A DNA stretch of 59,111 nt from Paracoccaceae bacterium (lineage in GTDB: Bacteria; Pseudomonadota; Alphaproteobacteria; Rhodobacterales; Rhodobacteraceae). The notes under the pieces were generated by a model. The model had not been told where the DNA came from and made no database searches. It worked only from the letters and a program-made list of their open reading frames with translations. Shown here piece by piece: positions 10,685 through 30,489 of the stretch; within the stretch, counting starts at the first letter, position 1; every line of letters starts with the position of its first letter. The translations under genes were made by a program, and so were the position numbers. Location: contig JAGWVA010000019.1 of the NCBI GenBank assembly GCA_028875855.1, positions 1 to 59,111 of the forward strand. The letters are read 5' to 3'.

Positions 10685-11380
10685 CTAGTGGGCGCCCTTG
10701 CCGTGCAGAACGACCGCGACCGTCCGCAAAACGATCCTCATGTCGCGCCAGAACGTCCAGTTGCGGACATAGTCCACGTCCATCTCGACCCGCTCCGCAT
10801 AGGTGGTCGTGCTGCGTCCGCCCACCTGCCAGGCCCCGGTCAGACCCGGCCGCACGGCCAGGTAATAGTCGATCCGGTCCTGGTAGTGGTGAAGCTCGGC
10901 GGCGGTGACGGGACGCGGCCCCACCATCGACATCTGCCCCCGCAACACGTTCCAGAACTGCGGCAATTCATCGAGGCTCGTCCGGCGCAGCAACGCCCCG
11001 AGACAGGTGACCCGGGGATCGGCGCTCAGCTTGCGGCTGGTCTCCCATTCGGCGCGGGCCGCGGGATCCGTGCGCAGCAGTTCGGCGAGACGGTCGTCCG
11101 CGTCCACGGCCATCGTGCGGAACTTCAGGCACCGGAACGGCCGCCCGTTCTGCCCGATGCGTTCATGGGCAAAGAGCACCGGCCCCCGCTCCGAAAAGCG
11201 CAGGATCACGGCGATCGCCAGCATGAACGGCGCAAAGAACACCAGCCCGCAAAGCGCGGCCAGCTTGTCGAAGAACGCCTTCGACAAGGGGATGTGCCCC
11301 CGGGACGAACCGGCGACGAGATCAGAGACGCCCGCGACCGAAAGAAGCTTCGCGGGTTCTACACGCCATGCCTTCGTCAT
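10685..11380 (-). CDS. ExoY-like undecaprenyl-phosphate sugar-1-phosphate transferase
   Basis: Probable priming enzyme of the polysaccharide: it transfers a hexose-1-phosphate to undecaprenyl phosphate at the inner membrane. The 231-residue length is that of the short ExoY type, with one N-terminal membrane segment (FFDKLAALCGLVFFAPFMLA) and the bacterial sugar-transferase signatures KFRTM, RRTSLDELPQFWNVLRG and MSMVGPRPV, then RPGLTGAWQVGGR. The ATG at 11378-11380 is chosen because upstream codons look non-coding. Its promoter should lie in the AT-rich gap to the flippase gene, which is divergent. Confidence 0.92.
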   Translation of the reverse strand: MTKAWRVEPAKLLSVAGVSDLVAGSSRGHIPLSKAFFDKLAALCGLVFFAPFMLAIAVILRFSERGPVLFAHERIGQNGRPFRCLKFRTMAVDADDRLAELLRTDPAARAEWETSRKLSADPRVTCLGALLRRTSLDELPQFWNVLRGQMSMVGPRPVTAAELHHYQDRIDYYLAVRPGLTGAWQVGGRSTTTYAERVEMDVDYVRNWTFWRDMRIVLRTVAVVLHGKGAH

Positions 11381-11724
11381 TGCACCAATACCATTTGACT
11401 GGCCTCCCGAAGAACGCCAAGCCGAACCACACCCATCTCTGCGATACATAATTCAAAAGAATATATTGAGTGGTTTGGTATGAATTGTAAGTTTCACATT
11501 AAGAAACTATTAACCAATTTCTGTTTTTAAATTGCCTTAATCCCTTGTTTCGGTAGAATTTTAGCAGGTCAGGCAGCGCCCCTCCGGCCTGCCTTTCGGC
11601 GCACCGATGTGTCACATTGGTGGGACTCGCATTGTAAATCTTTCGGGCCTGCCGCATGAATGGACCAAGGCCGGGTTCTGGGGGCGGAACCGGTCAGCAT
11701 TGCGCGAGCGAGTGATCGAGTAAC
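11381..11724. promoter_or_regulatory. AT-rich divergent regulatory region between ExoY-like gene and flippase
   Basis: 344 nt with no gene. Positions about 11445-11570 are strikingly AT-rich in a high-GC genome (runs such as AATTTCTGTTTTTAAATTGCC). This is where promoters of both divergent genes should be. In alphaproteobacteria such AT-rich leaders of exopolysaccharide genes are often bound by MucR/Ros-type regulators; that is inference and no specific site is defined. Confidence 0.5.
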
Positions 11725-13209
11725 GTGGCCCGGAACACCGAGAACCCAAAGCCCCAGAGTCTTTCTCGCTCCATCAGCGGCGGATTCTGGACGGTGGCCG
11801 AGCGCATCATCGCGCAGGTGAGCCAGCTCGTCCTGTTCGTCGCCGCCGCGCGCATCCTGTCGCCGGCCGATTTCGGGGTCTTTGCGCTGGTCTCCAGCGC
11901 GGCCATCCTGCTCATGCGGTCGGCCGAGGTCGGCTGGGCGCCCTACATCATGTCGTGGGAGGGCGACGACACGGTGCCGCGGCAGGTCGTGATGGTCGCC
12001 CTGATCAGCGGCGTCTGCATCGGCGCCCTTGCCTTCGGGGTCGGCTTGCTGTTGCCCCTGATCGGACTGCCGGCCGTCGTCAGCCACCTGTTCCTGCTGT
12101 TTTCCGTCTGGATCGCGCTCGCCACGACATCGTCGGCACAGCGCGGCATGATGATCTGGCGCGACGGCCTTCTGGGATCGTCGATTGCCGAAAGCCTTGG
12201 CGAGATCGCGGGCATGCTGGTCGCGCTCGTGCTGCTGTTTCACGGCTACGGCGTCTATTCGCTGGCCTTCGGGCGGCTGGCCTATCAGACGGTGCACATC
12301 GTCCTGAGCTTCGCGGTGACCCGGCGCAGCCCGCTGTGGGGGATGCCGCGCGCCGAGTTGCGGGCCCTTGGGCATTATTCGTGGCAGATCTTCACCAGCC
12401 GCTTCATCACGAACATGCGTCTCTACATCGGCACCTTCCTGATCGGCGGCTTTCTCGGCCCGGCGTCGGTCGGCTACTACCGCGCGGCCCAGCGGCTGGT
12501 GGGGTCGGTCGCCGAGATCATCGGCTCGCCCAGCCTTGTGCTGTCCTGGAGCATGTTCCGGCAAGCCCGCGACCGTTTCGGCGCGCGCAGCCCGGGCTTC
12601 CAGACCCAGGTGAACGTCTATTTCAAGCTGCTCACGGCCGCAGGCCTTCCCATCTTCCTCTGGCTTGGCCTGATGGGGGGCGACCTGATCACGGGCCTGA
12701 TCGGCGCGAAGTGGCTTCCGGCCCTGCCGCTGGTCCCCGTCCTCGCCTTTGCCCGGGCGCTGACGATGCCCAATACGGTGCTGGAGCCGATCCTTTCCCT
12801 GACCGGCGAGATCCGCCGCTTGCCGGGGTTCACGCTGATCTTCTTCATCGTCGCGGCGGTCTCGACCGTCGCGGGCGGGATGATCGGGCTGACCGCCGTC
12901 GCCTGGTCGGAAGTGCTCACCTCGGCCCTTGCGATGGTGGCGGGCGGCGTCCTGCTGCAACGGCATTGCGGGATCGCGTGGGACGAAGTCTTCGCCGCCC
13001 TGCGCAGCCTTGTCCTGCCGCTCCTTGCCGGAAGCCTCGCGCTGCTCTTCTTTCGGGAAACGCTCGGCACGGCGCAGATCGGCCCGCTGACCCGCGTCCT
13101 GATCGCCACGCTGCCGTCGCTTGTCATCTATGCGCTGGCGCTTGCCCTTTTCGACCCCGATCTGCGTCTGTTTCTGCGCCGTCGGCTGCGGGCGCGCGCC
13201 AACGCCTGA
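11725..13209 (+). CDS. Polysaccharide flippase (Wzx-like, MOP superfamily)
   Basis: A 494-residue integral membrane protein with about 12-14 hydrophobic helices and the N-terminal MOP/polysaccharide-transporter signature (GGFWTVAERIIAQVSQLVLF, then AARILSPADFGVFAL). Wzx proteins flip undecaprenyl-linked repeat units across the inner membrane. The start is a GTG at 11725. The ribosome-binding site is weak, but the next in-frame starts would remove the first helix. It is divergent from the ExoY-like gene and lies directly upstream of the NRPS-PKS on the same strand, separated by 329 nt, so the two need not share a transcript. Confidence 0.88.
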   Translation: MARNTENPKPQSLSRSISGGFWTVAERIIAQVSQLVLFVAAARILSPADFGVFALVSSAAILLMRSAEVGWAPYIMSWEGDDTVPRQVVMVALISGVCIGALAFGVGLLLPLIGLPAVVSHLFLLFSVWIALATTSSAQRGMMIWRDGLLGSSIAESLGEIAGMLVALVLLFHGYGVYSLAFGRLAYQTVHIVLSFAVTRRSPLWGMPRAELRALGHYSWQIFTSRFITNMRLYIGTFLIGGFLGPASVGYYRAAQRLVGSVAEIIGSPSLVLSWSMFRQARDRFGARSPGFQTQVNVYFKLLTAAGLPIFLWLGLMGGDLITGLIGAKWLPALPLVPVLAFARALTMPNTVLEPILSLTGEIRRLPGFTLIFFIVAAVSTVAGGMIGLTAVAWSEVLTSALAMVAGGVLLQRHCGIAWDEVFAALRSLVLPLLAGSLALLFFRETLGTAQIGPLTRVLIATLPSLVIYALALALFDPDLRLFLRRRLRARANA

Positions 13210-13538: not shown

Positions 13539-16500
13539 GTGCCCCAGTTGCCCGTCAAGGCGGTAGACCCTCTCGGCCCGATCTGGCCGGCCTTTGCGGC
13601 GGCGAGGGATGCGGTCCCCGACGCGCCGGCCCTGCTTGCCGACGGACGCCACCTGACCTACCGCGCGCTTTCCGACGCCGCCGAGCGGGTCGCGGCGCAC
13701 CTGATGGCCATGGGCGTGTGCCGCGGGGATTTTGTCGGTCTGCTCGCCTCCCGCTCGGTCGATGCGGTGATCGCCATGTTCGGCGTGCTGCGAGCGGGGG
13801 CGGCCTATGTGCCGCTCGATCCGACGCATGCGCCCGAACAGCTTCCCTTCATCGCCCGCGACCTGCCGCTAAAGGCCGCGCTGGTGGCCGATCGCTGGGC
13901 CGACCGCGCGGGGGATGTGCTGCCCGAAACCGTCCCCCGAGAGAGCCTCGATACGGTGCTGTGCAGGGACGCGGCGTTGCCCGCCACCTGGCCGGAGCCC
14001 CGGGCCGAGGACGTGGCCTATGTCATGTATACCTCGGGCACGACCGGCCAGCCCAAGGGCGTTGTCGTGCCGCAGGCAGGCATCACGGCCTTTTCCTATC
14101 GTCAACCGATGCTGGATGTGCGGCCGGACGACGTGGTGCTGCATGCCAATACCATTGCCTGCGACGGCTCGACCTTCGACATCTTCGCTCCGCTTCTGAA
14201 CGGTGCGGCCTGCGCCGTGGCCGAGATGCCCTTTCCGGCGATGGTCGAGCTGGCCCGCGTCTTCACCACGCATCGCGTGACGATGGCGATGCTTTATGCG
14301 GGCGTCTGCAACCTGATGATCGATCACCAGCTTGCCGCGCTCGGCACGGCACGGATGATCTACTCGGTGGGTGACGTCATCTCGATCCCGCATGCCCGCC
14401 GGCTGCTGGATGCCTACCCGGAGATGATCCTCCAGAACTTCTACGGCCCGACCGAGGTGACCTGCATCACGCTGGGCTGCCGCATCACGGCCGGGATGCT
14501 GGACGGTCGCCCCCTGCCGATCGGACGCTGCCTCGAGCGGAAAGAGGCTTTCGTCGTGGACGACGACCTGACCCCCCTGCCCGAGGGCGCAAGGGGTCAA
14601 CTGGTGCTGGGCGGCTGCGGCGTGGCGGCGGGTTACTACAATCAGCCCGAGCGCACGGCGGCCTCGTTCATCCCCGATCCCCGTCCGGGGCACGACGGGG
14701 TCGTCTATCTGACCGGCGATCTGGTCGAAATGCGATCCGATGGGCTTTACGCCTTCCACGGCCGCGCGGATCGGCAGGTGAAGCTGGGCGGGCGACGGAT
14801 CGAGCTGGACGGGATCGAGCATGTCCTGCGCCAGCAACCGGGCGTGGCCGATGCGGTGGTGATGGTGGTGACCGACCGCGGCGGCGACCGCAAGATCGGC
14901 GCGTTGATCCATCCCGCCGATGCTTCGGCGGAGCCTGAAGCCCTGATCCGCGCTGTCCTGCACGGGGCAGGTGAAAAGCTGCACCCGGCCACCCTGCCGA
15001 AGATCGTGCGGGTCACGACGGACTGGCACCTGACGCCCGCCGGCAAGGTGAACCGCCGCGCGATGCTGCCGCAACTCGAAGCAGCGCCTGCGCAGGCAGA
15101 GCCGCCGGCACCCGCGTCCGCCGCGCAGGATCGGGATGTGAAGGCGCTCGTGACCGAAGTCTGGGAAGAGATCCTGGGCTACAGCCCGATCCCGCAGGAT
15201 GCGACCTTCTTCGAGGCGGGCGGCTCGTCCATGCAACTGATCGACGCGCATTCGCGGATCGAGGCACGGCTGGGCCAGCATTTCGACATCACCCTGCTGT
15301 TCGAGACGCCGCGGCTGGGCGATCTGGCCGAACGGCTCGGCCGCCTTGCGCCTGCCGCCGCCATGACAAAGCCGCAGGCCGACCACGACACCGACCGCGA
15401 TATCGCCATCGTCGGCCTTGCCGGGCGCTTCCCCGGCGCGCCGACGCTCGAAGCCTTCTGGCAGCATTTGCGCCGCGGCGACAACCTGATCCCCCGCTTC
15501 TCCCCCGAGGAGATGGAGGACAGCTTCACCCCCGACGAGCGGCGCAGCCCGCATTACGTGCCCGCGCGCCCCATCCTCGACGGTGCGGAGGCGTTCGACG
15601 CGAAGTTCTTCGGCATCCTGCCGCGCGAGGCGGAGCGGATGGACCCGCAGGCCCGCGTGTTCCTTGAACTCTGTTCCGAGGCGCTGGACGACGCGGCCAT
15701 CGACCCGGCGCGGGCCGGCGGCCGGATCGGCGTCTGGGCCGGAAGCTCGATGAGCACCTACATGCTGCGCAACCTGATGGCGGACCGCGATGGGCTTCAC
15801 GCCTTCACCTCGGGCTACCAGATTTCCGACTATGCCACGCTGACCGGCAACCTGCCCGACAGCCTGGCCACCCGCGTCGCGTGGAAGCTGGACCTCAAGG
15901 GCCCGGCGATGACGGTGCAAACGGCCTGTTCCACCTCGCTCACCGCGATCGCGCAGGCGGTCACGGCGCTGCGCGGCGGGCTGGCGGATGTGGCGCTGGC
16001 GGGCGGCGTGTCGATCACCTTCCCGCAGAAACGGGGCTATTTCGCGCAGGAAGGGGGCATGGGCTCGACCGACGGGCTGTGCCGCCCCTTCGACGCGGAT
16101 GCGTCTGGCACAGTCTTCGGACATGGCGCGGGGGTCGTGGTGCTGAAGCGTCTGTCGGATGCGCAGGCGGCCGGGGATCGCATCCTTGCCGTTATCAAGG
16201 GCGTGGGTCTGTCGAACGACGGGGCGGACAAGATTTCCTATACTGCGCCATCCGTCACCGGTCAGGCCGAGGCGATCCGCGCAGCCATTCGCGATGCCGG
16301 CGTTGCGCCGCAGACGATCTCGTATGTCGAATGCCACGGCACCGCGACGCCGCTGGGCGACCCGATCGAGGTCGCCGGGCTCAATCAGGCCTTTGCCGGA
16401 ACGCCAACGGGTGCGGTGGCGCTCGGCTCGGTCAAGGGCAACATCGGGCATCTCGACGCGGCGGCAGGCGTGATGGGGGTCATCAAGACCACGCTGATGC

Positions 16501-19500
16501 TGCAGGCGCGAGAGATCCCGCCGGTCGCGCATTTCAAGGCGCCCAACCCCCGGATCGACTTCGCGGCAAGCCCGTTCAGGGTGGCTGCCGCGCTGCAGCC
16601 GTGGCAGAGCGACGGCCCCCTGCGGGCGGGCGTCTCCGCCTTCGGGGTGGGGGGCACCAATGCCCATGTCGTTCTGGAAGAAGCGCCCGCCGCGCCTGTC
16701 GCTGCGCCCGCTGCCGCGCCGCAGGTCCTGCCGCTCTCGGCGGCGTCGCCCGAAGCGTTGAAGGACTATGCCGCGCAGCTTGCCCGTCGCCTCACCGCGC
16801 CGGATGCGCCTGCGCTGGCGGATGTGGCCTTCACCCTGCAAGAGGGCCGGCGCCGCTTCGGCTATCGCCTCGCCCTTGCCGCCCGATCGGCACCTGAGGC
16901 GGCCGAGGCGCTGCGCGCCGCGCGGATGCCCGAGACGGCCGCCCCGGCGCGGAGACCGAAGACCGTCTTCATGTTCCCCGGTCAGGGGTCGCAATATCCC
17001 GGCATGGGGCGCGGGCTCTACCAGTCCGAGCCGGTCTTTGCCTCCGTGATCGATGCGGGCGTCGAGATCCTGAAACCGCTGATCGACACCGATCTGGCGC
17101 GGCTTCTGTGCTACGCCGACGTCTCGGACGAGGATGCCGCCCGCGCGCTCCGCGAGACGCGGCTGACGCAGCCCGCGCTGTTCCTGACCGAGGTGGCGAC
17201 CGCCCGGCTGTGGCAGGCGCGCGGCGTTATGCCGGATGCGATGATCGGCCATTCGGTGGGCGAATTCGCCGCGGCCGTGATCGCGGGCGTGATGTCCTTC
17301 GAGGATGCGCTGCGCATCATCGCCGCGCGCGGGCGGCTGATGCAGTCGCAGCCTGCGGGCGCGATGCTGTCGGTCCGCGCGACGGTCGAGGCGCTGACGC
17401 CCTTCCTGCACGGCGGGGCCGAGCTTGCCGCCTGCAACGCGCCCAATCTTCAGGTCATCGCCGGACCGGACGCGACCATCGCGGCCCTTGCCGAACGGCT
17501 TCAGGCGGCGGGCATCGTCTCGTCGCGGCTGCACACGTCGCACGCCTTCCATTCGGCGATGATGGACCCGGTGGTCCCGGCGTTGCAGGCCGCGATCGAA
17601 AAGCTGACCCTGAAGGCGCCCGTGCTCCCGATCATCTCCACCGTCACCGGACGGAAGATGACGGCGGCCGAGGCGCAAGACCCCGCCTACTGGGCTGCGC
17701 AGGCCCGGGCGACGGTCGATTTCCAGACCGCCCTCAAGACGGCGGCAGACGAGGTTTCCGAGACGGGGACGCCGGTGTTCATCGAGGTGGGGGCGGGTCG
17801 CACCCTCTCCGCCTTTGCCGGGCAGACCCTGAAACGCGGCGGCCATGGCGGGATCATCCAGTCCTTGCCGGACCACACCCAAACCGGCCAAGACGATTCA
17901 ACCGTCATGGCCGCCGCGTTCGCCAATCTCTGGGCCGCGGGCGCAGAGGTGGACTTTGCCCGCCTGCCCCGCGGCGCGCGGCGGGTGTCCCTGCCGCCCC
18001 ATCCCTTCCTGCGCAAACGCTACTGGGTCGAACCGGCGAAGCCCTCGGAACCGCCGGAAAGCCGCCACGATGGTGTCGCCTTCGCCCAACAGACCGCGGC
18101 CTTGCCCGCTCTGCCCCAATCCGACCCGACCAAGACCGACGTGCCAGTGCAGCCCTTACCCCAAGAGGCCAAGATGACCCTTGCCGACCGCAAACCCCGC
18201 CTGACGACCGCGCTTCTGGCGTTGTTCGGAAACATCTCCGGCGACGATCTGACCGAGGCGGATGCGGGCACGCCGTTCCTCGAACTCGGGTTCGACTCGC
18301 TGTTCATGGCGCAGGCCGCGACGGCCATCACGAAGGACTACGGGGTCGAGGTGCCGTTCCGCGCCATGCTGACCGATCATCCCTCGGTCGCGGCCCTTGC
18401 GGACCATCTCGACGCGATCCTGCCGCCCGATCCGCAGGTGGCCGAGGCACCGGCGGCCCCCGTCGCCGTGCCGGCACAGGCGGCGGCCCCTCTGCCCGCG
18501 CCTCAGGCGGCCCCGGCCGTTGCCCCGGCGGTCCGGATGACCGGCGATCTGTCCGGCGTCCTTCAGGCCCAGATGGCGACGATGCAGGCGGTCTTTGCGG
18601 ATCAGCTTCGCGCGCTTGGAACGCCGATGGCGCTGCCCATGGCCGCCGAACCGGCGCCCGCGCCATCCGCGCCCGTCCCATTGCCCGTCGCGGCGCAGCC
18701 TGCGCCCGTCGCGGCGGCCGCAGCGGTGGCGGTCGCGAAACCCGCCGATCCGAAGCCCGAGGGCGGGTTCAAGCTCGGCCGCGGCCCGAACGTCTCGGGC
18801 GCCGTCCTCACCGATCAGCAAAAGACCTTCGTCGCCGACCTCGCACGGCGGTATTCCGAGCGCCACGCCGCATCGAAGGCCTATACCGAGCGTTACCGGG
18901 ACGTGCTGGCCGATCCGCGCACGGCGGCGGGCTTTCATCCCGACTGGAAGGAACTGACCTTCCCCATCGTCGCCGACCGCTCGAAAGGGGCCCATATCTG
19001 GGACCTCGACGGCAACCGCTTCGTGGACGTGGTGAACGGCTTTGGCCAGACCGCCTTCGGCCACTCGCCCGATTTCGTGAGCGAGGCCGTGGTGAAGCAG
19101 CTTGAGAAGGGGTACGCCATCGGCCCGCAGGCCGACCGGGCCGGCCCGATCGCCGAGCGGCTGGCAAAATACCTTGGCCACGACCGCGTCACCTTCTGCA
19201 ACACCGGGTCCGAGGCCGTGATGGCCGCCATGCGCCTTGCGCGCGCCGTCACGGGGCGCGATCGGGTGGTGGTCTTCTCGAACGACTACCACGGCCAGTT
19301 CGACGAGGTTCTGGTGCGCGGCCGCGCGCGCGGCGGCGAGCCGGCAGCCCTTCCCATCGCGCCGGGCATCCCGCGGTCGGGCTTGGCCAACATGACGGTG
19401 CTGACCTACGGCGCGCCCGAGTCGCTCGACTGGATCCGCGCCAATATCGCCGACATCGCGGCCGTGATCGTGGAACCGATCCAGAGCCGCCATCCGGAAT

Positions 19501-22500
19501 TGCAGCCCAAAGCCTTCGTCCACGACCTTCGGGCGGTGACCGGGGCGGGCGGCACGGCGCTTGTGATCGACGAGGTGGTGACGGGCTTCCGCACCCATCC
19601 GCGCGGCATGCAGGCCGTCTGGGGGATAGAGGCCGACATGGCCACCTATGGCAAGGTCGTGGGCGGCGGGATGCCCATCGGCCTGCTGGCGGGCAACCGC
19701 CGCTTCATGGACGCGCTCGATGGCGGGGCCTGGCATTTCGGCGACGCCAGCAAGCCCGAGGTCGCGCCAACCTTCTTCGCCGGCACCTTCGTCCGCCACC
19801 CGGTGGCGCTGGCCGCCATCGACGCCGTGCTGGACCATCTGGAAGGACCGGGCCGCGCGCTCTGGGAAGACGTGCCTGCGCGCGCGGCGGCGCTGGCGGG
19901 CCGCATGAACGCCTTCCTCGCAGATCGCGGGCTGCCGGAGTTCGTGACGAACTACAACGGCTGGTTCGTCATCAACGCGACCGCGCAGGACCCGCGCGCC
20001 ACGCTGCTCTTTGCGCTGATGCGGCTGGAGGGGGTGCATATCCTCGACGGCTACTGCGGCTTCCTGACCACGGTGCACAGCGCCGAGGATATCGAGGCGA
20101 TCTTCACCGCCTTCGCCAAGGGCATCGATACGCTGCAATCGGTCGGCATCCTTGGCGGCACACGGCGACCGCTGATCGCGGTGGAGCCACCCCGCAAGGG
20201 CATTCCGCTGACCGAAAGCCAGACCGAGATCTGGCTGACCAACCAGCTTGGCGACACCGCCGCCTGCGCCTTCAACGAAGGGGTGACGCTGCGCCTTGAC
20301 GGGCCGTTGGACGTGGCCGCCCTGAATGGTGCGCTGACCGCGCTGGTCGCCCGGCACGATGCGCTGCGCATGGTCTTCGACCGGGCCGGCACAAGCTTCG
20401 ACGTGATCGATGCGTTCAGCCCCGACATGCCGCTGATCGACGCAAGCGCCGAGGCCGATCCCGAAGCCGCCCTGGCCCGCGCGCTCGACGACGAGGCCGC
20501 CACGGCCTTCGACCTGACCGCGGAACCGCCGATCCGCTTCGCGCTGGTCCGCCTGTCGGAGGCGGCGCATGTCCTGCTGATGACCGCCCATCACATCGCC
20601 GTGGACGGCATGTCCTACGGGCTGATCCTCAGGGACCTTGCCGCGCTTTATGCGGCCCGGGTCGAGGGGCGGGCCGATCCCCTTCCGGCAGCCGCCTCTT
20701 TCGCGGCGGTTGCGGCAGAGGCCCCGGCCGAACCGGACGCAAAGGCGCTGGCCTACTGGAAAGCGCAATACGACACGATCCCGGCCCTGCCCGATCTGCC
20801 CACCGACCGTCCGCGACCGGCGATGAAAAGCTTCAACGGCGCGACGGTGACCGAGGCGCTTGCCGCCGAAGACATGAAGGCCATCCGCAAGGCGGGCGCA
20901 AAGCTCGGCTGCACGCTCTTCTCGACGCTTTTCGCCGGGCTTCAGATCACGCTTGGCAAGCTTTCGGGCGCGCGGGACGTGGTGATCGGCGTGCCGTCCG
21001 CCGGGCAGACGCTGCTGGCCGACCCGAATGTCGTGGGTCATTTCGTCAACCTGCTGCCGATCCGTGCGGCCTTCGATCCCGCCGAACCGGCGGCGGCGCA
21101 TCTCAAGCGCGTGGGCGCAAAAGTGATGGAGGCCTTCGACCATCAGGGCCTCACCTTCGGGACGCTGGTGCGCGCGCTGGCGGTGCCGCGCGCGCTCGAC
21201 CGGATGCCTCTGACCGAGGTGCAGTTCAACCTCGAGCGCGCGACCGAAGGGCTGAGCGCGGCCGGCGTGACCTTCACCCCCGCGCCCTCGCCCAAGGCCG
21301 CGTCGAACTTCGACATGTTCATCAACGTCACCGAAAGCCGCGAGGGGCTGCGGGTGGACGTGGATTACAACGCCGATGTCTATGACGCCGCCACGATCCG
21401 CCGCTGGATCGCGCATTACCGCACCGTGCTGATGGCGCTTGCGACGGATACCGAGACGCGGATCGCCGATCTGCCGCTGATCCCGGTGACCGACGAGACG
21501 GGCACGCCAGAAATGGCCTTCGACCGCTCCGCCATGGTGCAGGACCTGATCGCGCGCGGCGCGGCGCTCGATCCGGCGGCCGTGGCGGTCGAGGGGCCGG
21601 ACGCCCGCCAGACCCATGCCGAGCTGGCCGCGGCCAGCGATGCGCTGGCGGCCCATATCCAGTCCCGCCTGCCCGAGCCCGGCGCGCGCATCGCCGTGGC
21701 CCTGCCGCGCGGCGCGGGGATGCTGGTGGCGCTGCTGGCCGTGCTGAAGGCCGGGCACACCTACGTCCCGCTCGATCCCCGCCAACCCGCGGCGCGGTTG
21801 CAGTCCATCGTCGAAACCGCCGAAGCGGCGGCGCTGATCGCGGCCGAGGCGCCCTTTGCGACCGGTCTGCCGCTGATCCGGCCGGATGAGGCCAAGCCCG
21901 GGGCAAGGCCCGCGCCGGTGACGGCCGATCCCGAACGGGCGGCCTATGTCATCTTCACCTCCGGCTCGACCGGCACGCCGAAAGGGGTCGCCGTGCCCCA
22001 TCGCGCGGTGGTGAACTTCCTGACCTCGATGGCGCGGGAGCCGGGGCTGAGCGCAAGGGACAGCCTGCTTGCCGTAACGACCGTCAGCTTCGACATTGCG
22101 GTGCTGGAGCTGTTCCTGCCGCTGAGCGTCGGGGCAAGGGTCGTGATCGCTTCGGCCGATGACGTGCGCGACGGCTTCCCGCTGGTCGAGCGCCTCAAGC
22201 GGGGCGACATCACCACGATGCAGGCGACCCCGACCCTCTGGGCGATGATGCTGGACGCGGGGCTCAAGCCGGGCGCGGGGTTCAAGATGCTCTGCGGCGG
22301 GGAACCCCTGCCCGAGGATCTGGCCGCACGGCTCAGCGCGGGCGGCGGAACGCTCTGGAACCTTTACGGGCCGACCGAGACGACGATCTGGTCCGCGATC
22401 AAGAAGGTGGAGCCCGGCGCGCCGGTCACCATCGGCCACCCGATCGGCAATACGGAACTGCATGTGCTGTCCGAAGACGGCCAGGTCCAGCCGATCGGTG

Positions 22501-23318
22501 CGGTGGGCGAGTTGAACATCGGCGGCGCGGGGTTGGCGCTTGGCTATCTCAACCGTCCCGACCTGACCGAAGCCGCCTTCCGCGACGTCGTGCTGAACGG
22601 CAAGCCCCGCCGTCTTTACCGCACGGGCGATCTCGCCCGGCGCCTGCCCGATGGCGAGATCGTCGTGCTGGGCCGGATCGACGGTCAGGTGAAACTGCGC
22701 GGCTTCCGGATCGAGCTGGGCGAGATCGAGGCGAAGCTGCGCGCCCAGGCTGGCGTTGCCAAGGCCGCGGTGGACCTTCGCCCCGGCGCCCATGGCGACA
22801 AGCGCCTTGTCGCCTGGATCGTCGCAGAGACCGGGGCAGCCCCCGACTTTGCCGAGCTTGCCCGCGCGCTTGGGCAAAGCCTGCCGGATTACATGATCCC
22901 GCAGGGATGGATGCGGCTTGACGCGCTGCCGCAGACGGCAAACGGCAAGCTGGATCGCAAGGCCCTTCCCGCCCCCGAGATTGCCGCGCCGTCCGAGGCC
23001 AGCCTCGTTGCGCCGCAGACGGAAACCGAGGGCAAGATCGCCGCCATCTGGGCCGAGGTTCTGGGCCAGGAGGCGATCAGCGTCACGGCAACGCTGCAAT
23101 CGCTGGGCGTGGATTCCTTGTCGGTGTTCCGCATCGCGGCGCGAATGCTGGATGCCGGTCTGGGCCTCGAGGCGCGCGACATGCTCAGCCATCCGACGAT
23201 CCGCGAACTGGCCGCCCATGCCGACCAGCGCGGCGGCGATGCCGACGGGCGCGGGGCGCGGCCCTCGCTCAAGTCCTTCCGCGGCGGCGCGCGGCGCGGC
23301 ATGAAGGCGGCGTCGTGA
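13539..23318 (+). CDS. Hybrid NRPS-PKS megasynthetase with in-line aminotransferase
   Basis: 3259 residues; numbering from the GTG at 13539, chosen for its GGAG site (a GTG at 13398 is possible). Domains: A1 ~17-510 (YTSGTTGQPKG, NFYGPTE, LTPAGK); PCP1, Ppant Ser564; KS ~621-1046 with catalytic Cys797, His933, His971; AT ~1142-1440 with Ser1239 (GHSVGE) and HAFH at 1335, the malonyl-CoA type; ACP Ser1587 (GFDSL); Ala/Pro-rich linker 1634-1739; class III PLP aminotransferase ~1753-2198 (NTGSEA, Asp2011, Schiff-base Lys2039); C ~2224-2645 with HHIAVDG at 2351; A2 ~2670-3145; PCP2 Ser3193. No ketoreductase, dehydratase or enoyl reductase is present, so the malonyl-derived beta-keto group is expected to be transaminated. 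The A2 pocket, read by hand, is DILQLGLIWK, a glycine-type code. The stop overlaps the next gene (TGATG). Confidence 0.93.
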   Translation: MPQLPVKAVDPLGPIWPAFAAARDAVPDAPALLADGRHLTYRALSDAAERVAAHLMAMGVCRGDFVGLLASRSVDAVIAMFGVLRAGAAYVPLDPTHAPEQLPFIARDLPLKAALVADRWADRAGDVLPETVPRESLDTVLCRDAALPATWPEPRAEDVAYVMYTSGTTGQPKGVVVPQAGITAFSYRQPMLDVRPDDVVLHANTIACDGSTFDIFAPLLNGAACAVAEMPFPAMVELARVFTTHRVTMAMLYAGVCNLMIDHQLAALGTARMIYSVGDVISIPHARRLLDAYPEMILQNFYGPTEVTCITLGCRITAGMLDGRPLPIGRCLERKEAFVVDDDLTPLPEGARGQLVLGGCGVAAGYYNQPERTAASFIPDPRPGHDGVVYLTGDLVEMRSDGLYAFHGRADRQVKLGGRRIELDGIEHVLRQQPGVADAVVMVVTDRGGDRKIGALIHPADASAEPEALIRAVLHGAGEKLHPATLPKIVRVTTDWHLTPAGKVNRRAMLPQLEAAPAQAEPPAPASAAQDRDVKALVTEVWEEILGYSPIPQDATFFEAGGSSMQLIDAHSRIEARLGQHFDITLLFETPRLGDLAERLGRLAPAAAMTKPQADHDTDRDIAIVGLAGRFPGAPTLEAFWQHLRRGDNLIPRFSPEEMEDSFTPDERRSPHYVPARPILDGAEAFDAKFFGILPREAERMDPQARVFLELCSEALDDAAIDPARAGGRIGVWAGSSMSTYMLRNLMADRDGLHAFTSGYQISDYATLTGNLPDSLATRVAWKLDLKGPAMTVQTACSTSLTAIAQAVTALRGGLADVALAGGVSITFPQKRGYFAQEGGMGSTDGLCRPFDADASGTVFGHGAGVVVLKRLSDAQAAGDRILAVIKGVGLSNDGADKISYTAPSVTGQAEAIRAAIRDAGVAPQTISYVECHGTATPLGDPIEVAGLNQAFAGTPTGAVALGSVKGNIGHLDAAAGVMGVIKTTLMLQAREIPPVAHFKAPNPRIDFAASPFRVAAALQPWQSDGPLRAGVSAFGVGGTNAHVVLEEAPAAPVAAPAAAPQVLPLSAASPEALKDYAAQLARRLTAPDAPALADVAFTLQEGRRRFGYRLALAARSAPEAAEALRAARMPETAAPARRPKTVFMFPGQGSQYPGMGRGLYQSEPVFASVIDAGVEILKPLIDTDLARLLCYADVSDEDAARALRETRLTQPALFLTEVATARLWQARGVMPDAMIGHSVGEFAAAVIAGVMSFEDALRIIAARGRLMQSQPAGAMLSVRATVEALTPFLHGGAELAACNAPNLQVIAGPDATIAALAERLQAAGIVSSRLHTSHAFHSAMMDPVVPALQAAIEKLTLKAPVLPIISTVTGRKMTAAEAQDPAYWAAQARATVDFQTALKTAADEVSETGTPVFIEVGAGRTLSAFAGQTLKRGGHGGIIQSLPDHTQTGQDDSTVMAAAFANLWAAGAEVDFARLPRGARRVSLPPHPFLRKRYWVEPAKPSEPPESRHDGVAFAQQTAALPALPQSDPTKTDVPVQPLPQEAKMTLADRKPRLTTALLALFGNISGDDLTEADAGTPFLELGFDSLFMAQAATAITKDYGVEVPFRAMLTDHPSVAALADHLDAILPPDPQVAEAPAAPVAVPAQAAAPLPAPQAAPAVAPAVRMTGDLSGVLQAQMATMQAVFADQLRALGTPMALPMAAEPAPAPSAPVPLPVAAQPAPVAAAAAVAVAKPADPKPEGGFKLGRGPNVSGAVLTDQQKTFVADLARRYSERHAASKAYTERYRDVLADPRTAAGFHPDWKELTFPIVADRSKGAHIWDLDGNRFVDVVNGFGQTAFGHSPDFVSEAVVKQLEKGYAIGPQADRAGPIAERLAKYLGHDRVTFCNTGSEAVMAAMRLARAVTGRDRVVVFSNDYHGQFDEVLVRGRARGGEPAALPIAPGIPRSGLANMTVLTYGAPESLDWIRANIADIAAVIVEPIQSRHPELQPKAFVHDLRAVTGAGGTALVIDEVVTGFRTHPRGMQAVWGIEADMATYGKVVGGGMPIGLLAGNRRFMDALDGGAWHFGDASKPEVAPTFFAGTFVRHPVALAAIDAVLDHLEGPGRALWEDVPARAAALAGRMNAFLADRGLPEFVTNYNGWFVINATAQDPRATLLFALMRLEGVHILDGYCGFLTTVHSAEDIEAIFTAFAKGIDTLQSVGILGGTRRPLIAVEPPRKGIPLTESQTEIWLTNQLGDTAACAFNEGVTLRLDGPLDVAALNGALTALVARHDALRMVFDRAGTSFDVIDAFSPDMPLIDASAEADPEAALARALDDEAATAFDLTAEPPIRFALVRLSEAAHVLLMTAHHIAVDGMSYGLILRDLAALYAARVEGRADPLPAAASFAAVAAEAPAEPDAKALAYWKAQYDTIPALPDLPTDRPRPAMKSFNGATVTEALAAEDMKAIRKAGAKLGCTLFSTLFAGLQITLGKLSGARDVVIGVPSAGQTLLADPNVVGHFVNLLPIRAAFDPAEPAAAHLKRVGAKVMEAFDHQGLTFGTLVRALAVPRALDRMPLTEVQFNLERATEGLSAAGVTFTPAPSPKAASNFDMFINVTESREGLRVDVDYNADVYDAATIRRWIAHYRTVLMALATDTETRIADLPLIPVTDETGTPEMAFDRSAMVQDLIARGAALDPAAVAVEGPDARQTHAELAAASDALAAHIQSRLPEPGARIAVALPRGAGMLVALLAVLKAGHTYVPLDPRQPAARLQSIVETAEAAALIAAEAPFATGLPLIRPDEAKPGARPAPVTADPERAAYVIFTSGSTGTPKGVAVPHRAVVNFLTSMAREPGLSARDSLLAVTTVSFDIAVLELFLPLSVGARVVIASADDVRDGFPLVERLKRGDITTMQATPTLWAMMLDAGLKPGAGFKMLCGGEPLPEDLAARLSAGGGTLWNLYGPTETTIWSAIKKVEPGAPVTIGHPIGNTELHVLSEDGQVQPIGAVGELNIGGAGLALGYLNRPDLTEAAFRDVVLNGKPRRLYRTGDLARRLPDGEIVVLGRIDGQVKLRGFRIELGEIEAKLRAQAGVAKAAVDLRPGAHGDKRLVAWIVAETGAAPDFAELARALGQSLPDYMIPQGWMRLDALPQTANGKLDRKALPAPEIAAPSEASLVAPQTETEGKIAAIWAEVLGQEAISVTATLQSLGVDSLSVFRIAARMLDAGLGLEARDMLSHPTIRELAAHADQRGGDADGRGARPSLKSFRGGARRGMKAAS

Positions 23319-26092
23319 TGACGGGCGAAACGAAGGTTGCGGGATCGGTGGCAGAGGTCATCGGCGAATTCCCGACATCGGCCACGCAGCGGCGCTGCTG
23401 GTTTCTGGATCAGGTCACGCCGGGCAATCCCGCCCTAAACGTTGCCGTGCGGTGGGAACTGCGCGGCAAGGTCTCGGCGTCAAGCGTGGAACGCGCGTTT
23501 CGCCATGTGATCGACCGGCACGAAATCCTGCGCACGCGCCTTGTCGCGCGCGAAGGGATGCCCGTGCAGGAAGTGGTCAGCCATGTCGATTTCAAGCTCG
23601 GGCTGATCGACATCGCCGCGACCCCGGAAACCGACCATGCCGAGCGTCTCGACGTCATCGCGCATGAGAATGCCGCGCAGCCCTTCGATCTGACGAAGCC
23701 CGGCCTGATCCGGGCTACGCTCGTCCGCTTTGCTCCCGACCGGGCCATGCTGCTGATCGTGGCGCATCAAAGCTGCTTCGACGGCTTCTCGATCGGTGTG
23801 CTCGGGGAAGAGATCGGGACCGCCACCGCCGCCTTCGAGGCCGGACGGCAGCCGGACCTGCCGGACCTCGCCCTGCAATACGGCGACTTCTGCCTTTGGC
23901 AGCAGGAATACCTTGCCAGCGGCGTGCTGGAGGAGGAAACCGCCTATTGGACGGAGACGCTCCGCAACGCGCCCTATTTCGAGGTCGATCCCGACAAGCC
24001 GCGCCCGGCCAACCGCGGCACGGCCGTGGCGCAGGCCGACCTCCGGCTTGCCCCCGAATTTCACGACCGGCTCGCCGCCGCCGCCAAGGCGCAGGGCGTG
24101 TCGCCCTTCACCTACGGCAGCGCGCTCGTCTCTGCCTGCCTGCACCGGCTGACCGGGGCGGGCGAGGTGCTGATGGGCACGCAGGTGGCCGGCCGGACCG
24201 AAGTGGACCTTGAGCCGCTGATCGGCGTCTTCATCAACAACCTCGTGCTGCGGTTCCAGACGGCGGCCGAAACGCCGTTCGCGGATCACCTGAAACAGGC
24301 CCGCCATGTGGTCGAGGGGGCGCTGAGCCACCAGAGCCTGCCGTTCAACATGCTTGTGGAACGGCTGAACCCGGTGCGCGACGCCTCGCGCAATCCGCTG
24401 ATCTCGGTCAACTTCCTGCTTCAGCATGTGTTCCTGAAGGGCAAGCGCTACGGCACGTTCGATCTGATCTCGGTGCCGTCCCACGCCCCGGGCGCGGTCT
24501 ATGATCTCAGCTTCATCGTGATCGGCCGCCCCGAGACGGGGTGGAAGATCAGCTGCGAATACGCGACCGAGCTGTTCGAGCGCGACACCATCGATCGGCT
24601 GCTGGCGATGATGCGCGACGGCTTCGACCGTGTGATGGATCAGCCGGACCTGCGGCTGGGCGATCTGCCGATGGACCCGCAACTGGCAGCGCGGCAGGAT
24701 CAGGGCACCCGCGCCCTCAAACGGATCGAGGAAGCCATCGCGGCCCATCCGCAGGTGCGCGAGGCGGCGGCCATCCGGGCGGGCAGCGGCTTTTACGCCT
24801 TCGCCGTCCCCGGGGCGGCGGGCGTCACGCCTCTGGAAACCATGCCCGGCCTCCTGATGGACTTCGCCGCGCGCCGGCTTTCGCCCAGCGAGATGCCGAT
24901 GGGGATCAGCATCCTTGCCGATTTCCCGCGCAGCTCACGCGGGGCGATCAACCGCGCGGCCCTGAGCCTGCCGCCTTCCGCGACCGCGCGCGCCACGGGG
25001 CGTCAGCTTCCCCCGGACCCGCAGATCGAAGCGCGGCTGGCCGAGCACTGGAAGGACATCCTGACGATCACCGATGTCCCGCCCCATGCCACCTTCTTCG
25101 AGCTGGGCGGGCATTCCCTGCTGGCGGTCCGCCTGCTGACCCGCATCCGTCAGGACTGGGGGTTGGAACTGGGCGTGGCGACGATCTACGAACACGCGAC
25201 CCTTCCCGCGCTCGCGCGGCTCGTCAGCGAACAGACGGCGGGCCGCACGGAACCCGTGGAAGACGACTGGCGCATCCTGCCGCTCGTTCGCGGCGACACG
25301 GGCCTGCCGATCCTGTCGATCAACGACGTGGGCGTGACCCTTGCTACCGTGACCCGCATGGCTGCACCCCACCCGGCCACCTGCATCCGCCTGTTCGATG
25401 GCAAGCGCGGCATCGATCAAGGCGAACGGTCGTTCGAGGAGATCGGCGCGGAATATGCCAAGGTGGTCCGCAAGGCGCGGCCTGACGGGCCGTATATCCT
25501 CTATGGCAACTGCGTGCACGGCAATGTCGCGGTCGAGACCGCCCGGCACCTGCAGGAAACCGGCGCGGAGATTGCCGCCGTCGTCCTGAAGGACGTGTGG
25601 GAGCCGGGCTACGTCGAACGGCTCAAGGCCAGCCGCAAGCACCGCTGGCTGGAACGCGTTCATGCCTTCCGCAACCGCCTTCGCCTCGTTCGGGCGGGAC
25701 ACATGAGCCTTGCCGCGATGCTGGGCAGCTACCGCCTTGTCCGGGCCAGCGGAGTGCTGAACCTTGCGCGTGCGATCGGACTGATCGACCGGGTCAAGGG
25801 GCTGGACGTGACCGAGGAACAGGAGGGCTTCGTGGCCTACCTCGCCCGCGCCCGCGACCGTTATCGCCCCCGCCCCGTGACCTTTCCCGTGTTGCATGTC
25901 GTCACGAAGATCACCCCGCAGGGCAAGGCCTTCGCGCCTTCGATCGGCTGGGAAAAGGTCGTGACGGGCCGGCTGAAGACCGTCCATCTGGACGACGTGC
26001 GGGTCCGTCAGGGCAAGGAGATCGGGACGGCGGACCTCGCGGTCGAGATCGACCGGTTCCTTGCCGAGATCGGGCAGGACGGACGCGCCTAG
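23318..26092 (+). CDS. Terminal NRPS protein: C, A remnant, PCP, thioesterase
   Basis: 924 residues, numbered from the ATG at 23318 that overlaps the stop of the megasynthetase; certainly its partner. Condensation domain ~18-450 (SATQRRCWFLDQ, RHEILRTR), but the active-site motif is HQSCFDG at 150-156, so the catalytic second His of HHxxxDG is Gln151. Residues ~465-552 resemble only the C-terminal subdomain of an adenylation domain; the ATP-binding core is absent and the usual A10 Lys is missing (RGAINR). PCP ~570-635 carries Ppant Ser600 (FFELGGHSLLA). The alpha/beta-hydrolase thioesterase ~650-915 has the elbow GNCVHG with Cys732 in place of Ser, probably with Asp759 and His890. It would release the chain. 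The frame is continuous, so the deletion is not a frameshift. Confidence 0.9.
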   Translation: MTGETKVAGSVAEVIGEFPTSATQRRCWFLDQVTPGNPALNVAVRWELRGKVSASSVERAFRHVIDRHEILRTRLVAREGMPVQEVVSHVDFKLGLIDIAATPETDHAERLDVIAHENAAQPFDLTKPGLIRATLVRFAPDRAMLLIVAHQSCFDGFSIGVLGEEIGTATAAFEAGRQPDLPDLALQYGDFCLWQQEYLASGVLEEETAYWTETLRNAPYFEVDPDKPRPANRGTAVAQADLRLAPEFHDRLAAAAKAQGVSPFTYGSALVSACLHRLTGAGEVLMGTQVAGRTEVDLEPLIGVFINNLVLRFQTAAETPFADHLKQARHVVEGALSHQSLPFNMLVERLNPVRDASRNPLISVNFLLQHVFLKGKRYGTFDLISVPSHAPGAVYDLSFIVIGRPETGWKISCEYATELFERDTIDRLLAMMRDGFDRVMDQPDLRLGDLPMDPQLAARQDQGTRALKRIEEAIAAHPQVREAAAIRAGSGFYAFAVPGAAGVTPLETMPGLLMDFAARRLSPSEMPMGISILADFPRSSRGAINRAALSLPPSATARATGRQLPPDPQIEARLAEHWKDILTITDVPPHATFFELGGHSLLAVRLLTRIRQDWGLELGVATIYEHATLPALARLVSEQTAGRTEPVEDDWRILPLVRGDTGLPILSINDVGVTLATVTRMAAPHPATCIRLFDGKRGIDQGERSFEEIGAEYAKVVRKARPDGPYILYGNCVHGNVAVETARHLQETGAEIAAVVLKDVWEPGYVERLKASRKHRWLERVHAFRNRLRLVRAGHMSLAAMLGSYRLVRASGVLNLARAIGLIDRVKGLDVTEEQEGFVAYLARARDRYRPRPVTFPVLHVVTKITPQGKAFAPSIGWEKVVTGRLKTVHLDDVRVRQGKEIGTADLAVEIDRFLAEIGQDGRA

Positions 26093-26761
26093 TCAGTCCG
26101 GCAGCGGCATCGCCCCCTCGCGCAGGCGCAGTTCCACGGGCGCGCCTGCGCCGATCATCGCCACGGCCCCGGCCATCCGGGGACCGAGCGGCAGATCTGC
26201 CAGCGTCCAGTCGCGCGGATCGCCTCCCTCCATCCGGTTCAGGGCGGCGATCTCGGTCAGAGTGACGTCGAAACTGTCCAGAGGATGGGAAAGCCCCGTG
26301 CCCAGGGCCTTCACCACGGCCTCCTTCCGGGTCCAGAGACGAAAGAAGCCGGTGGGCCAGTCGGTGATCGGCAGCCTTCTCAGCGCGGCCTGTTCGGCGG
26401 GCGAGAAGAAGCGCCGCGCCACGGCGGTTTCCACCGGGCGATGGGCTTCCAGATCGACGCCGAGCGGATGCGCCGGTGTCACGCCAAGCAGCGCCCAATC
26501 CCCGGAATGGGACAGGTTGAAGGATGGCCCGCCCGGCAGGAAGGGCTTGCCTGCCGCGTCCTGCCGGAAGGTCAGGCACGCGGGATCGCGATCCATCACC
26601 AGACCCAGCACCCGGCGCAATCCGGCACGGGCGGCCCGAAAGGCCATACGATCCCGGGCATGGACGTAGCGGCCCGCGCGGGCTTCCTCGTCCTCGCTGA
26701 GGCAGCCTGCCGGCGTCTGGCGATCCAGCCGCCACAGCCAGAGATCGACTGTCACCGACAT
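26093..26761 (-). CDS. Sfp-type 4'-phosphopantetheinyl transferase
   Basis: Transfers phosphopantetheine from CoA to the serine of carrier domains, here most likely the four carriers of the adjacent assembly line. The 222-residue length fits the Sfp group, with FNLSHSGDWALLGV, the Mg-binding GVDLEAHRP, and the WxxKEAxxK signature as WTRKEAVVKALG. Its stop codon abuts the stop of the thioesterase gene (0 nt between convergent genes), and its start is 5 nt after the stop of the upstream GT4 gene, so it probably shares a transcript with the wzc-GT4 operon. That links carrier activation to the polysaccharide genes. Confidence 0.93.
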   Translation of the reverse strand: MSVTVDLWLWRLDRQTPAGCLSEDEEARAGRYVHARDRMAFRAARAGLRRVLGLVMDRDPACLTFRQDAAGKPFLPGGPSFNLSHSGDWALLGVTPAHPLGVDLEAHRPVETAVARRFFSPAEQAALRRLPITDWPTGFFRLWTRKEAVVKALGTGLSHPLDSFDVTLTEIAALNRMEGGDPRDWTLADLPLGPRMAGAVAMIGAGAPVELRLREGAMPLPD

Positions 26762-26766
26762 GGCGA

Positions 26767-27945
26767 TCAGGCCATCAGGCGGGCCGCGCTCGTCCCCACG
26801 CCCAGCCGCGAAAGGCTGGCGGAGATGCCACGGCGAAAGGCGGCCTCGTCAAAGCTGTGCGCGTGGCGGACGAGGTCGGCGGGGGACATGGCTGTCGCGC
26901 CAAGGGACTCGAACCGTTCGACGGCATCCATCAGGGCTTCGACGCTCTGGTCGTGGAAGAACAGCCCCGTGCGGCCCTCGATCACCGTATCCAGAACCCC
27001 GCCCCGGCCATAGGCGATGACCGGACGGCCGGAGGCCATCGCCTCGACCGGAACGATGCCGAAATCCTCTTCGCCCGGGAAGATCAGCGCCTTGCAGCGC
27101 GCGAGATGGGCCCTGAGCACGTCGAAAGGCACCTGCCCGAGAAAACGCACGTTGTCCGGCGCGCCAGCGGCAAGCCGCTTGACCGTCTTGCCCGGCCCGC
27201 CAATCACCACCAGCGGCTTCTTCAGCCGCCGAAAGGCCTCGATCGCCAGATCGGGGCGCTTGTAGGGGGCCAGCTCCCCGGCCCAAAGGTAGAAATCGCC
27301 CAGTTCGGCCGTCGGCACGGGGGCGAAATCGCCCACCGCGACGGGCGGGTGGACGATGTCGGCGTCGCGGCGCCAATACTTGCGGATGCGGTTGGCGACA
27401 TGGCTCGAATTGGCGGCAAAGCCATCCACGCGGCTGGCGCTTGCCACGTCCCACTGGCGCAGGCGATGGGCGAGCCCCGGCATCATTGCGCGCGACACGA
27501 AGCCCGCCGTCTCGCGATAGACGTGATATTGGTCCCACAGATAGCGCATCGGCGAATGGCAATAGCACAGGTGCGGCGCTTCGGGCGGGGCGATCACGCC
27601 CTTGGCCGGGCCCGCCTCGCTCGAGATCACCAGATCGTAGCCGGTCAGATCCAGTTCCTCGAGGGCGCGGGGCATGAAGGGCAGGTATTTCTGGTAGAGC
27701 CGCGGCGCGAAAGGCAGCCGCGCGACCGAGGTCGTGACGATCCGATGCGCGTTGATGACCGGGCTCACGCGTCCCGGCACATGGACATGAGTGAAGATGT
27801 CCGCCTCGGGGAACATTCGGCAGAGCGCTTCCAGCACCTTCTCGCCGCCCCGCATCCCCACAAGCCAGTAGTGGATGATCGCCACACGGCGCGGGCCTTT
27901 TCCAAGGCGCGGCAGGACAAGGGGGGCCTCAGCTCGAATATTCAT
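26767..27945 (-). CDS. Family 4 glycosyltransferase (GT-B)
   Basis: A 392-residue retaining GT-B enzyme. The C-terminal domain has the sugar-nucleotide site EEDFGIVPVEAMASGRPVIA and the phosphate-contacting VIGGPGKTVKRL. The N-terminal domain has a glycine-rich HYWLVGMRGGEKV loop. It probably adds a sugar to the lipid-linked repeat unit in the cytoplasm. The ATG at 27943-27945 lies inside the 3' end of wzc (17-nt overlap), indicating translational coupling. It precedes the PPTase gene on the same strand. Confidence 0.9.
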   Translation of the reverse strand: MNIRAEAPLVLPRLGKGPRRVAIIHYWLVGMRGGEKVLEALCRMFPEADIFTHVHVPGRVSPVINAHRIVTTSVARLPFAPRLYQKYLPFMPRALEELDLTGYDLVISSEAGPAKGVIAPPEAPHLCYCHSPMRYLWDQYHVYRETAGFVSRAMMPGLAHRLRQWDVASASRVDGFAANSSHVANRIRKYWRRDADIVHPPVAVGDFAPVPTAELGDFYLWAGELAPYKRPDLAIEAFRRLKKPLVVIGGPGKTVKRLAAGAPDNVRFLGQVPFDVLRAHLARCKALIFPGEEDFGIVPVEAMASGRPVIAYGRGGVLDTVIEGRTGLFFHDQSVEALMDAVERFESLGATAMSPADLVRHAHSFDEAAFRRGISASLSRLGVGTSAARLMA

Positions 27946-30127: not shown

Positions 30128-30489
30128 CCGGTCAACCCTTCGTCGCCCATCCGGACATCCCGCCGACGACCCGCCGGAGACATGCCTCCCACCACCTAAA
30201 CTGCACTGGTCGCACCTTGATGGGGCCGTTCGGGGGCCAAGGTCAAACAATGGCCATCCTGAACAATCTTCCGAATATTTTCTGCAAACAATCCGGACCG
30301 AGGGGCCGCATTGGACCCTATCCCGGAACGAACCGGGGGGTGCCAAGTCCCCGGGGCCGCGGCGATTCTGCCGGCCGGGACGGCCTCAGGATGCGGGTTG
30401 ACGCAATCCGGCGCGCGCGCTCATATTGAGCGGATTTTCGTTCCGGCAAGACATGTTCGACCGGCTCCAATCGGAAAAGACGGCTCACG
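30128..30489. promoter_or_regulatory. Divergent intergenic region between wzc and the Wzy-like gene
   Basis: 362 nt without a supported gene. The middle (30240-30300) is AT-rich and contains an inverted repeat GGCCA-N11-TGGCC (30235-30255) followed by AATATTTTCTGCAAACAATC. It should carry promoters for both divergent polysaccharide units. No terminator or known RNA motif was recognised. Confidence 0.45.

Follow-up and report, generated by a model that had tools for sequence, protein, structure and literature searches.

The stretch of DNA considered here, 59,111 nucleotides forming one contig of the 3.86-Mb genome of a Paracoccaceae bacterium (GCA_028875855.1, contig JAGWVA010000019.1; the whole stretch is called the window below), carries a hybrid nonribosomal peptide synthetase-polyketide synthase (NRPS-PKS) assembly line with polysaccharide genes on either side of it. 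The association of this line with a polysaccharide pathway is well supported by comparison with homologous loci and is the main result of the analysis.

The assembly line is encoded by two plus-strand genes that overlap by 4 bases. NRPS1 (13539..23318) has the order A1-PCP1-KS-AT-ACP-AMT-C1-A2-PCP2, with adenylation (A), peptidyl carrier (PCP), ketosynthase (KS), acyltransferase (AT), acyl carrier (ACP), aminotransferase (AMT), and condensation (C) domains; its Pfam and NCBIfam matches are AMP-binding (two), PP-binding (three), KS, AT, class-III aminotransferase, and Condensation, at E-values from 1.7e-143 to 8.5e-36. The open frame runs from 13398 to 23318 (3306 amino acids counted from the GTG at 13398), and the GTG at 13539 looks likelier as the start, judging from the position of A1 in homologues. 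NRPS2 (23315..26092) reads C2-(A3 remnant)-PCP3-TE, where TE is the thioesterase, from matches to Condensation (1.3e-81), AMP-binding_C, PP-binding, and Thioesterase. An Sfp/HetI-type 4'-phosphopantetheinyl transferase (PPTase; 26093..26761, minus strand; Pfam/NCBIfam) lies tail to tail with NRPS2, the two stop codons abutting. Alignment places the ACST motif in KS, GHSVG and HAFH in AT, the YGK lysine in the aminotransferase, HHIAVDG in C1, and a serine in each of the four carrier domains.

A search of genome contigs with a single protein query returned no relative; an alignment query succeeded, giving 506 relatives, of which the best 80 loci, the closest relatives of the window, were analysed. 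Within these, AMT is found in 76, KS in 75, and a PPTase homologue in 67. The same domain order recurs in homologues from two orders, so it is not due to chance, and the assembly line with its PPTase is confirmed as real. The domain order, the PPTase ending at the same point, and the catalytic residues of KS, AT, aminotransferase, and first C domain thus agree with a preliminary description of this DNA, which also rightly confined its statement on C domains to the first, since the second has the motif HQSCFDG. In Loktanella salsilacus DSM 16199 (G006; L078, L051-L052) NRPS1 is split into two frames, broken within C1, unlike two Loktanella plasmid copies.

Linkage to polysaccharide genes

Upstream of NRPS1 lie a GT2 glycosyltransferase (9469..10530, minus strand), an initiating sugar (phosphoglycosyl) transferase of the Bac_transf family (10685..11449, minus strand; 9e-65), and a Wzx-type flippase (11725..13209, plus strand), all recognised by family matches; the flippase also groups by tree with a subtype that accompanies the NRPS-PKS. 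Beyond the PPTase are a GT4 glycosyltransferase, here GT4a (26767..27999, minus strand), which family match and relatives mark as a conserved core gene of the locus; a Wzz/Wzc-type chain-length determinant with an autokinase-like part (27929..30346, minus strand; family match); a putative Wzy/O-antigen-ligase-like protein (30490..31872, plus strand); and a second GT4 glycosyltransferase (31906..33051, minus strand; family match). The Wzy-like assignment comes from the hydrophobic sequence of the protein, which has no Pfam or NCBIfam match, and from homologues at the same place in two other genomes (G182, G007). The joint presence of Wzx, Wzz/kinase, glycosyltransferases, and an initiating sugar transferase assigns the locus to the Wzx/Wzy type. 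The outer-membrane exporter Wza gave no match in the window with the one query used; it is annotated in the homologous loci L039 and L042. Elsewhere in the window (899-1920, minus strand) are two neighbouring genes that, from motifs in their translations, we take to be peptide-deformylase-like.

The preliminary description was correct about the assembly line and incomplete as to its purpose, because its coordinates cut off the surrounding polysaccharide locus; neither that locus, nor the Gln of C2, nor the Cys nucleophile of TE figured in it. Polysaccharide genes were found in 65 of the 80 homologous loci in the stretches fetched and in nine more after extension, 74/80 in all. Of the 15 loci without such a gene at first, four are cut by contig ends (L108, L112, L117, L133) and 11 were followed with PF02397; nine of the latter could be extended via overlapping sequence, and polysaccharide genes appeared in 9/9. 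The proposal of a free, very small product is accordingly unsupported in the form given. Homologues of the TIGR04325 methyltransferase (MTase04325) and of pyruvyl transferase occur in the fetched flanks of 35/80 and 13/80 loci, and a GINT1_N (PF24793) protein, perhaps a sugar-modifying enzyme, in 47/80 (for example L042:22583-24184) as well as in 5/18 polysaccharide loci that lack the line.

A protein search of plasmids matched 988 records, 52 of them with coverage of at least 80%. In four annotated plasmid loci (Rhodobacter CZR27, Jannaschia M317, Loktanella salsilacus, and Rhizobium CCGE532) the line, PPTase, kinase or Wzz, flippase, and glycosyltransferases stand together; no sugar transferase is listed for the CZR27 stretch. 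The annotated loci L039-L042 list no TonB receptor, and the genes immediately next to the line in them include no recognised exporter or resistance gene. A siderophore reading was dropped, as neither a TonB receptor nor an iron transporter is listed there, in plasmid gene tables that are incomplete.

Control loci and divergent members of the group (G568, G1008) were chosen from class- and phylum-wide alignment searches, which mostly returned ordinary C domains. The controls were 16 alphaproteobacterial NRPS loci of up to 40 kb each; one (G969) was moved to the members after its domains had been read, leaving 15, three of which are contigs or contig ends of less than 33 kb each. At E<=1e-10 the sugar transferase, Wzx, and GT4a were each found in 0/15 controls, and Wzc in 1/15. 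One control, G651 (L210-L211), is a multi-module NRPS with Wzc and GINT1_N homologues nearby, and is perhaps a second NRPS in a polysaccharide locus.

The line is also an optional part of the locus. Among 295 genomes of the window's family, 26 have close GT4a homologues (E<1e-120), and six of these 26 were known bearers of the line; when the GT4a loci of the other 20 were fetched, 18 lacked the line in the stretch read and two (G142, G251) had it, with NRPS and polysaccharide genes staying together despite a rearranged gene order. PPTase, CocE, and MTase04325 homologues were each found in 0/18 of the line-free stretches read, as against 18/20, 8/20, and 13/20 line-bearing loci (a set that excludes G568, G1008, and G969), while sugar transferase and GT2 homologues are present in line-free loci too. 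CocE, a hydrolase of the CocE/NonD (S15) type (for example L039:13899-15731), has a hydrophobic N-terminus, is likely exported, and could trim or move aminoacyl esters; its best match in the window's genome has 32% identity and lies on another contig.

A particular flippase subtype accompanies the line. Against the Wzx of the window, 11 line-free loci score at most 90 bits and seven line-bearing Hyphomicrobiales, members of a different order, 152-190. In a Wzx tree of 43 rows, for which 17 loci were taken from the 39 of the 80 that have a Wzx and four near copies were left out, 29 of 32 line-bearing rows form one clade (support 97/94) that spans two orders and includes none of the 11 line-free rows, which are themselves not one clade by the approximately unbiased (AU) test. 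A Wzx hidden Markov model (HMM) gives 481-558 bits for eight loci outside its training set, which are kin of the trained ones, versus at most 154 for line-free loci. Presence of the line changes three times on the Wzx tree and about nine times on a GT4a tree of 51 rows (8-10 in bootstraps, at least four of them forced by the starred branches; 10 chosen loci of the 25 GT4a-bearing among the 80). From the two tree patterns the line is read as a cassette repeatedly gained or lost on a conserved polysaccharide backbone, together with its flippase subtype.

Predicted chain chemistry and the terminal domains

A1 (13602..15077, plus strand) has the motif-anchored pocket letters D-G-F-G-Y-V-F-C-I. The amine-binding Asp, likewise motif-anchored, is present in 86/86 aligned rows and the best solved matches are NRPS adenylation domains, which bears out the earlier assignment of the loading domain to the amino-acid type rather than to the fatty-acyl ligases. 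Since these 86 rows, each with its Asp, contain 46 distinct pocket codes, the first residue probably differs between lineages; no single amino acid could be named for A1. For KS and AT (15396..17837, plus strand), the HAFH motif of AT is one that we take to be malonyl-type, and it suggests malonate as the extender. The class-III aminotransferase (18888..20147, plus strand; Lys in 91/91 rows) is placed between the PKS ACP and a C domain, where, by analogy with lines that we take to work in this way, it would act on a beta-keto thioester, as previously proposed. C1 (20202..21485, plus strand) retains HHxxxDG in 90/94 rows, with three gaps and one DH among the rest. The code of A2 (21561..22949, plus strand), DILTLGLIW, presumably specifies Gly, again as previously proposed; DIL(T/S)-x-G-(M/L)-(I/V)-W, that is DILTLGMIW or a near variant, is kept in 95/95 rows, and the best solved relatives include LgrA and 5u89, which we take to be the Gly modules of LgrA and DhbF. 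Together, the readings of A1, AT, AMT, and A2 predict a 3,4-diaminoacyl-Gly chain.

The last module departs from the usual pattern. In the C2 motif HQSCFDG (23765..23785, plus strand; alignment), Gln replaces the second His; this position is Gln in 75 of 97 rows, spanning two orders and more, His in 20, and Arg in two. Conservation is higher in C2 than in C1 (median identities to the window of 51.5% and 44.9%), and as a conserved HQxxxDG condensation domain C2 offers a test case. Only the C-terminal subdomain is left of A3 (24725..24943, plus strand), its AMP-binding_C match of 24.5 bits lying exactly at the cut-off. The relative G568 (L186-L187, G568:C93:38500-64391) has a C2 with HHxxxDG, an intact Gly-like A3, a PCP, and a Cys thioesterase, and G969 (L224-L225, G969:C1:1715000-1754800) ends in C-C-PCP-TE, the thioesterase having Ser as its nucleophile and a PGDH-type His. 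Because G568 keeps an intact A3, the stub in the window looks decayed, and the third module of G568 likely represents the older state of the C-(A remnant)-PCP-TE arrangement. With C2 lacking its second His, A3 decayed, and a Cys thioesterase at the end, the chain may be complete as X-beta-amino acid-Gly, or it may be extended by a further residue, should PCP3 receive one in trans. Within the same 40 kb, the divergent member G969 also has MTase04325, PPTase, and Wzc homologues.

TE (25250..26089, plus strand) is an alpha/beta-hydrolase thioesterase in which Cys733, Asp760, His735, and His861 (NRPS2 numbering) stand out and no His occupies the canonical place. Its nucleophile elbow reads GNCVHG, and the nucleophile is Cys in 87 of 88 aligned rows, the exception being L083, whose frame misaligns there. 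No row holds both the canonical His and His735: 40 rows, including the window, have His735 without the canonical residue, 47 have the reverse, and only L083 has neither. The canonical His, which follows the last core strand, is missing in 33/33 Rhodobacterales rows (window included); the only invariant His columns in these rows are His735 (CVHG) and His861 (PVLH). Of the 50 Hyphomicrobiales rows, 46 have the canonical His; at position 735, 46 show Asn and four His, and at column 861, 44 show Leu, Ile, Val, or Met, four Gln, and two His. Some rows are duplicates: equal lengths mark G007 and L058, G091 and L065, G139 and L077, and G006 and L078 as one contig each, and Loktanella1 matches G006 exactly over the compared portion, as Samer does L098. 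The swap still holds in 82/83 rows after removal of five duplicate rows. Much of the pattern tracks one split between lineages, and the change may have run in either direction.

In a structural model (predicted local distance difference test, pLDDT, 94.4), Cys733 is at the elbow, Asp760 directly follows its strand (position I), the nucleophile helix has His735 in its first turn, and the next-but-one strand bears His861. Because His735, two residues past Cys733, and the canonical His are mutually exclusive, His735 is the likely substitute general base, and TE provides a testable case of a catalytic His that moved within a Cys enzyme. Two other candidates were set aside: His861, absent from four of the 40 rows with His735 and without the canonical His, and the His at NRPS2 891 (end of the last core strand in the window), whose column is His in just 12/88 rows. 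The best sequence and fold match of TE is AB3403. Apart from ObiF and SulM, according to PMC11298585, AB3403 is the only structurally characterised thioesterase of an NRPS that uses Cys as its nucleophile, and its Asp is at position I. Cys-to-Ser variants of ObiF and SulM turn to hydrolysis, according to sections of PMC11298585 and PMC6668435; by analogy, a Cys thioesterase would fit transfer to an acceptor better than hydrolysis.

Interpretation and comparison with known systems

Covalent decoration of the polysaccharide is the best reading of the locus. With a probability of roughly 0.55, the NRPS-PKS forms a cassette that some exopolysaccharide loci of this Wzx/Wzy type carry for decoration and others lack, its TE transferring a 3,4-diaminoacyl-glycyl group to the repeat unit. 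Attachment, product, and expression are here deduced from the genes. In such a pathway, A1 would load the lineage-variable amino acid and the KS-AT-ACP module add malonate; the in-line aminotransferase would convert the beta-ketone to an amine, yielding a 3,4-diamino acid that C1 joins to the glycine on A2-PCP2. The altered C2 would then move the chain onto PCP3, perhaps with the addition of a residue supplied in trans, and TE would take it onto Cys733, with His735 as the likely base. Like known Cys thioesterases, TE would favour transfer over hydrolysis, the acceptor being a hydroxyl or amine of a repeat-unit sugar, and the line-associated flippase subtype would export the decorated unit before polymerisation.

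Several observations weigh against decoration. No acceptor-binding element is evident, CocE is missing from the window's locus and so is not essential, and, without the usual catalytic His in C2, the final step may be something other than a condensation; polymer, product, and expression are predictions from the genes. Two of the 80 loci (L103, L121) show no polysaccharide gene in the stretches read. The 80 are the closest relatives and were scored by BLAST, the controls by HMMs trained on members, and control G651 matched Wzc (1/15) and GINT1_N, with PPTase matches in 4/15. Three line-free genomes (G253, G229, G276) carry lone KS- or A-like proteins. As to the flippase, a Wzx was seen in 11 of the 18 line-free loci in the stretch read, so that seven lack a comparison; G142 bears the line with a flippase of the line-free type, those of CZR27 and G568 are weak matches on long branches outside the clade, and the association could in part arise because a single block is inherited as a unit.

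A free small diamino-acyl peptide, acting as a signal, metallophore, or antibiotic and merely co-inherited or co-regulated with the polysaccharide genes, for instance in biofilm life, would account for the ordinary fold of the thioesterase and for an A1 pocket as variable as in diversifying natural products. NRPS-PKS lines, we presume, usually release free products, and other transporters do occur near the line, so that export may take another route: in L039 a DMT transporter stands some 9 kb from NRPS2, and in L041 an RND pair is found at a distance of about 11 kb. Such a peptide would leave unexplained why linkage persists across 74/80 loci, even where gene order is rearranged, and why a flippase subtype accompanies the line. 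Neither an exporter nor a resistance gene was recognised immediately next to the line in L039-L042, and we regard this alternative as unlikely.

The specificity of the flippase would also follow if the product were a primer, cap, or anchor, added once per chain or per lipid-linked oligosaccharide rather than to every repeat unit, and the methyltransferase and pyruvyl transferase homologues of many loci could be seen in that light. Nothing observed points to it directly, line-free loci also hold the sugar transferase and GT2 homologues, and we consider single addition distinctly improbable. An iturin- or microcystin-like line with a decaying, inactive last module, the locus being a relic in the window's genome, is suggested by the A3 stub and by HQ in place of HH in C2; it is hard to reconcile with a C2 better conserved than C1, with Gln recurring across orders, and with open frames and otherwise intact catalytic motifs, and we give it very little weight.

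If the polysaccharide is indeed decorated, assembly-line chemistry builds the side groups of a polymer, and genome mining for free metabolites seeks the product in the wrong fraction. A wider proposal, which we put forward tentatively and as somewhat doubtful, is that the line with its own PPTase, the matching flippase subtype, and a Cys thioesterase (Cys-x-His in one lineage) constitute a new glycan modification, in which exopolysaccharide repeat units are acylated with a cationic 3,4-diaminoacyl-glycyl group of species-variable first residue, giving positively charged, strain-specific polysaccharides to many soil, symbiotic, and marine Alphaproteobacteria. Legume symbionts (Rhizobium, Ensifer/Sinorhizobium) and marine Rhodobacterales are among the bearers of the line, which may therefore matter for surface recognition and biofilms. 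In the open literature, searched by the link and not by product names and with subscription journals mostly outside its scope, no paper was found that describes a connection between NRPS-PKS and polysaccharide genes.

The closest parallels in domain order are the iturin and mycosubtilin (ItuA, MycA) and microcystin (McyE) lines, which we take to be in-line class-III aminotransferase systems; the KS-AT-ACP-AMT-C-A-PCP core is common to them and the window, and in them a beta-keto thioester is presumably aminated before condensation, as proposed here. The window differs from these lines in loading through an amino-acid-type A domain instead of a fatty-acyl ligase, in its polysaccharide locus, in its Cys thioesterase, and in its few modules. 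Single A-PCP pairs, as in Dlt-type systems, put aminoacyl groups on polysaccharides. The window would share with these the transfer of thiotemplated amino acids onto a glycan polymer, and differs in employing a complete NRPS-PKS line that would extend the chain by a polyketide unit and transaminate it. The GxC nucleophile of its TE is shared with AB3403 (4ZXH), ObiF1, and SulM. The Asp at position I (Asp760 in the model) is as in AB3403, unlike that of ObiF and SulM, which portions of PMC11298585 and PMC6668435 place at position II, after strand 7; TE departs from AB3403-like enzymes in lacking the canonical His and having one at the second residue past the Cys (40/88 rows, the window's included). 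For promonan, a Wzx/Wzy-dependent alphaproteobacterial exopolysaccharide, acylation of lipid-linked units is proposed in parts of PMC11340318 as a critical assembly step; the promonan locus as outlined there resembles that of the window in its sugar transferase, glycosyltransferases, flippase, Wzz/kinase, and Wzy-like gene, with an OafA-type acyltransferase where the window has a hybrid NRPS-PKS with its own PPTase (PMC11340318).

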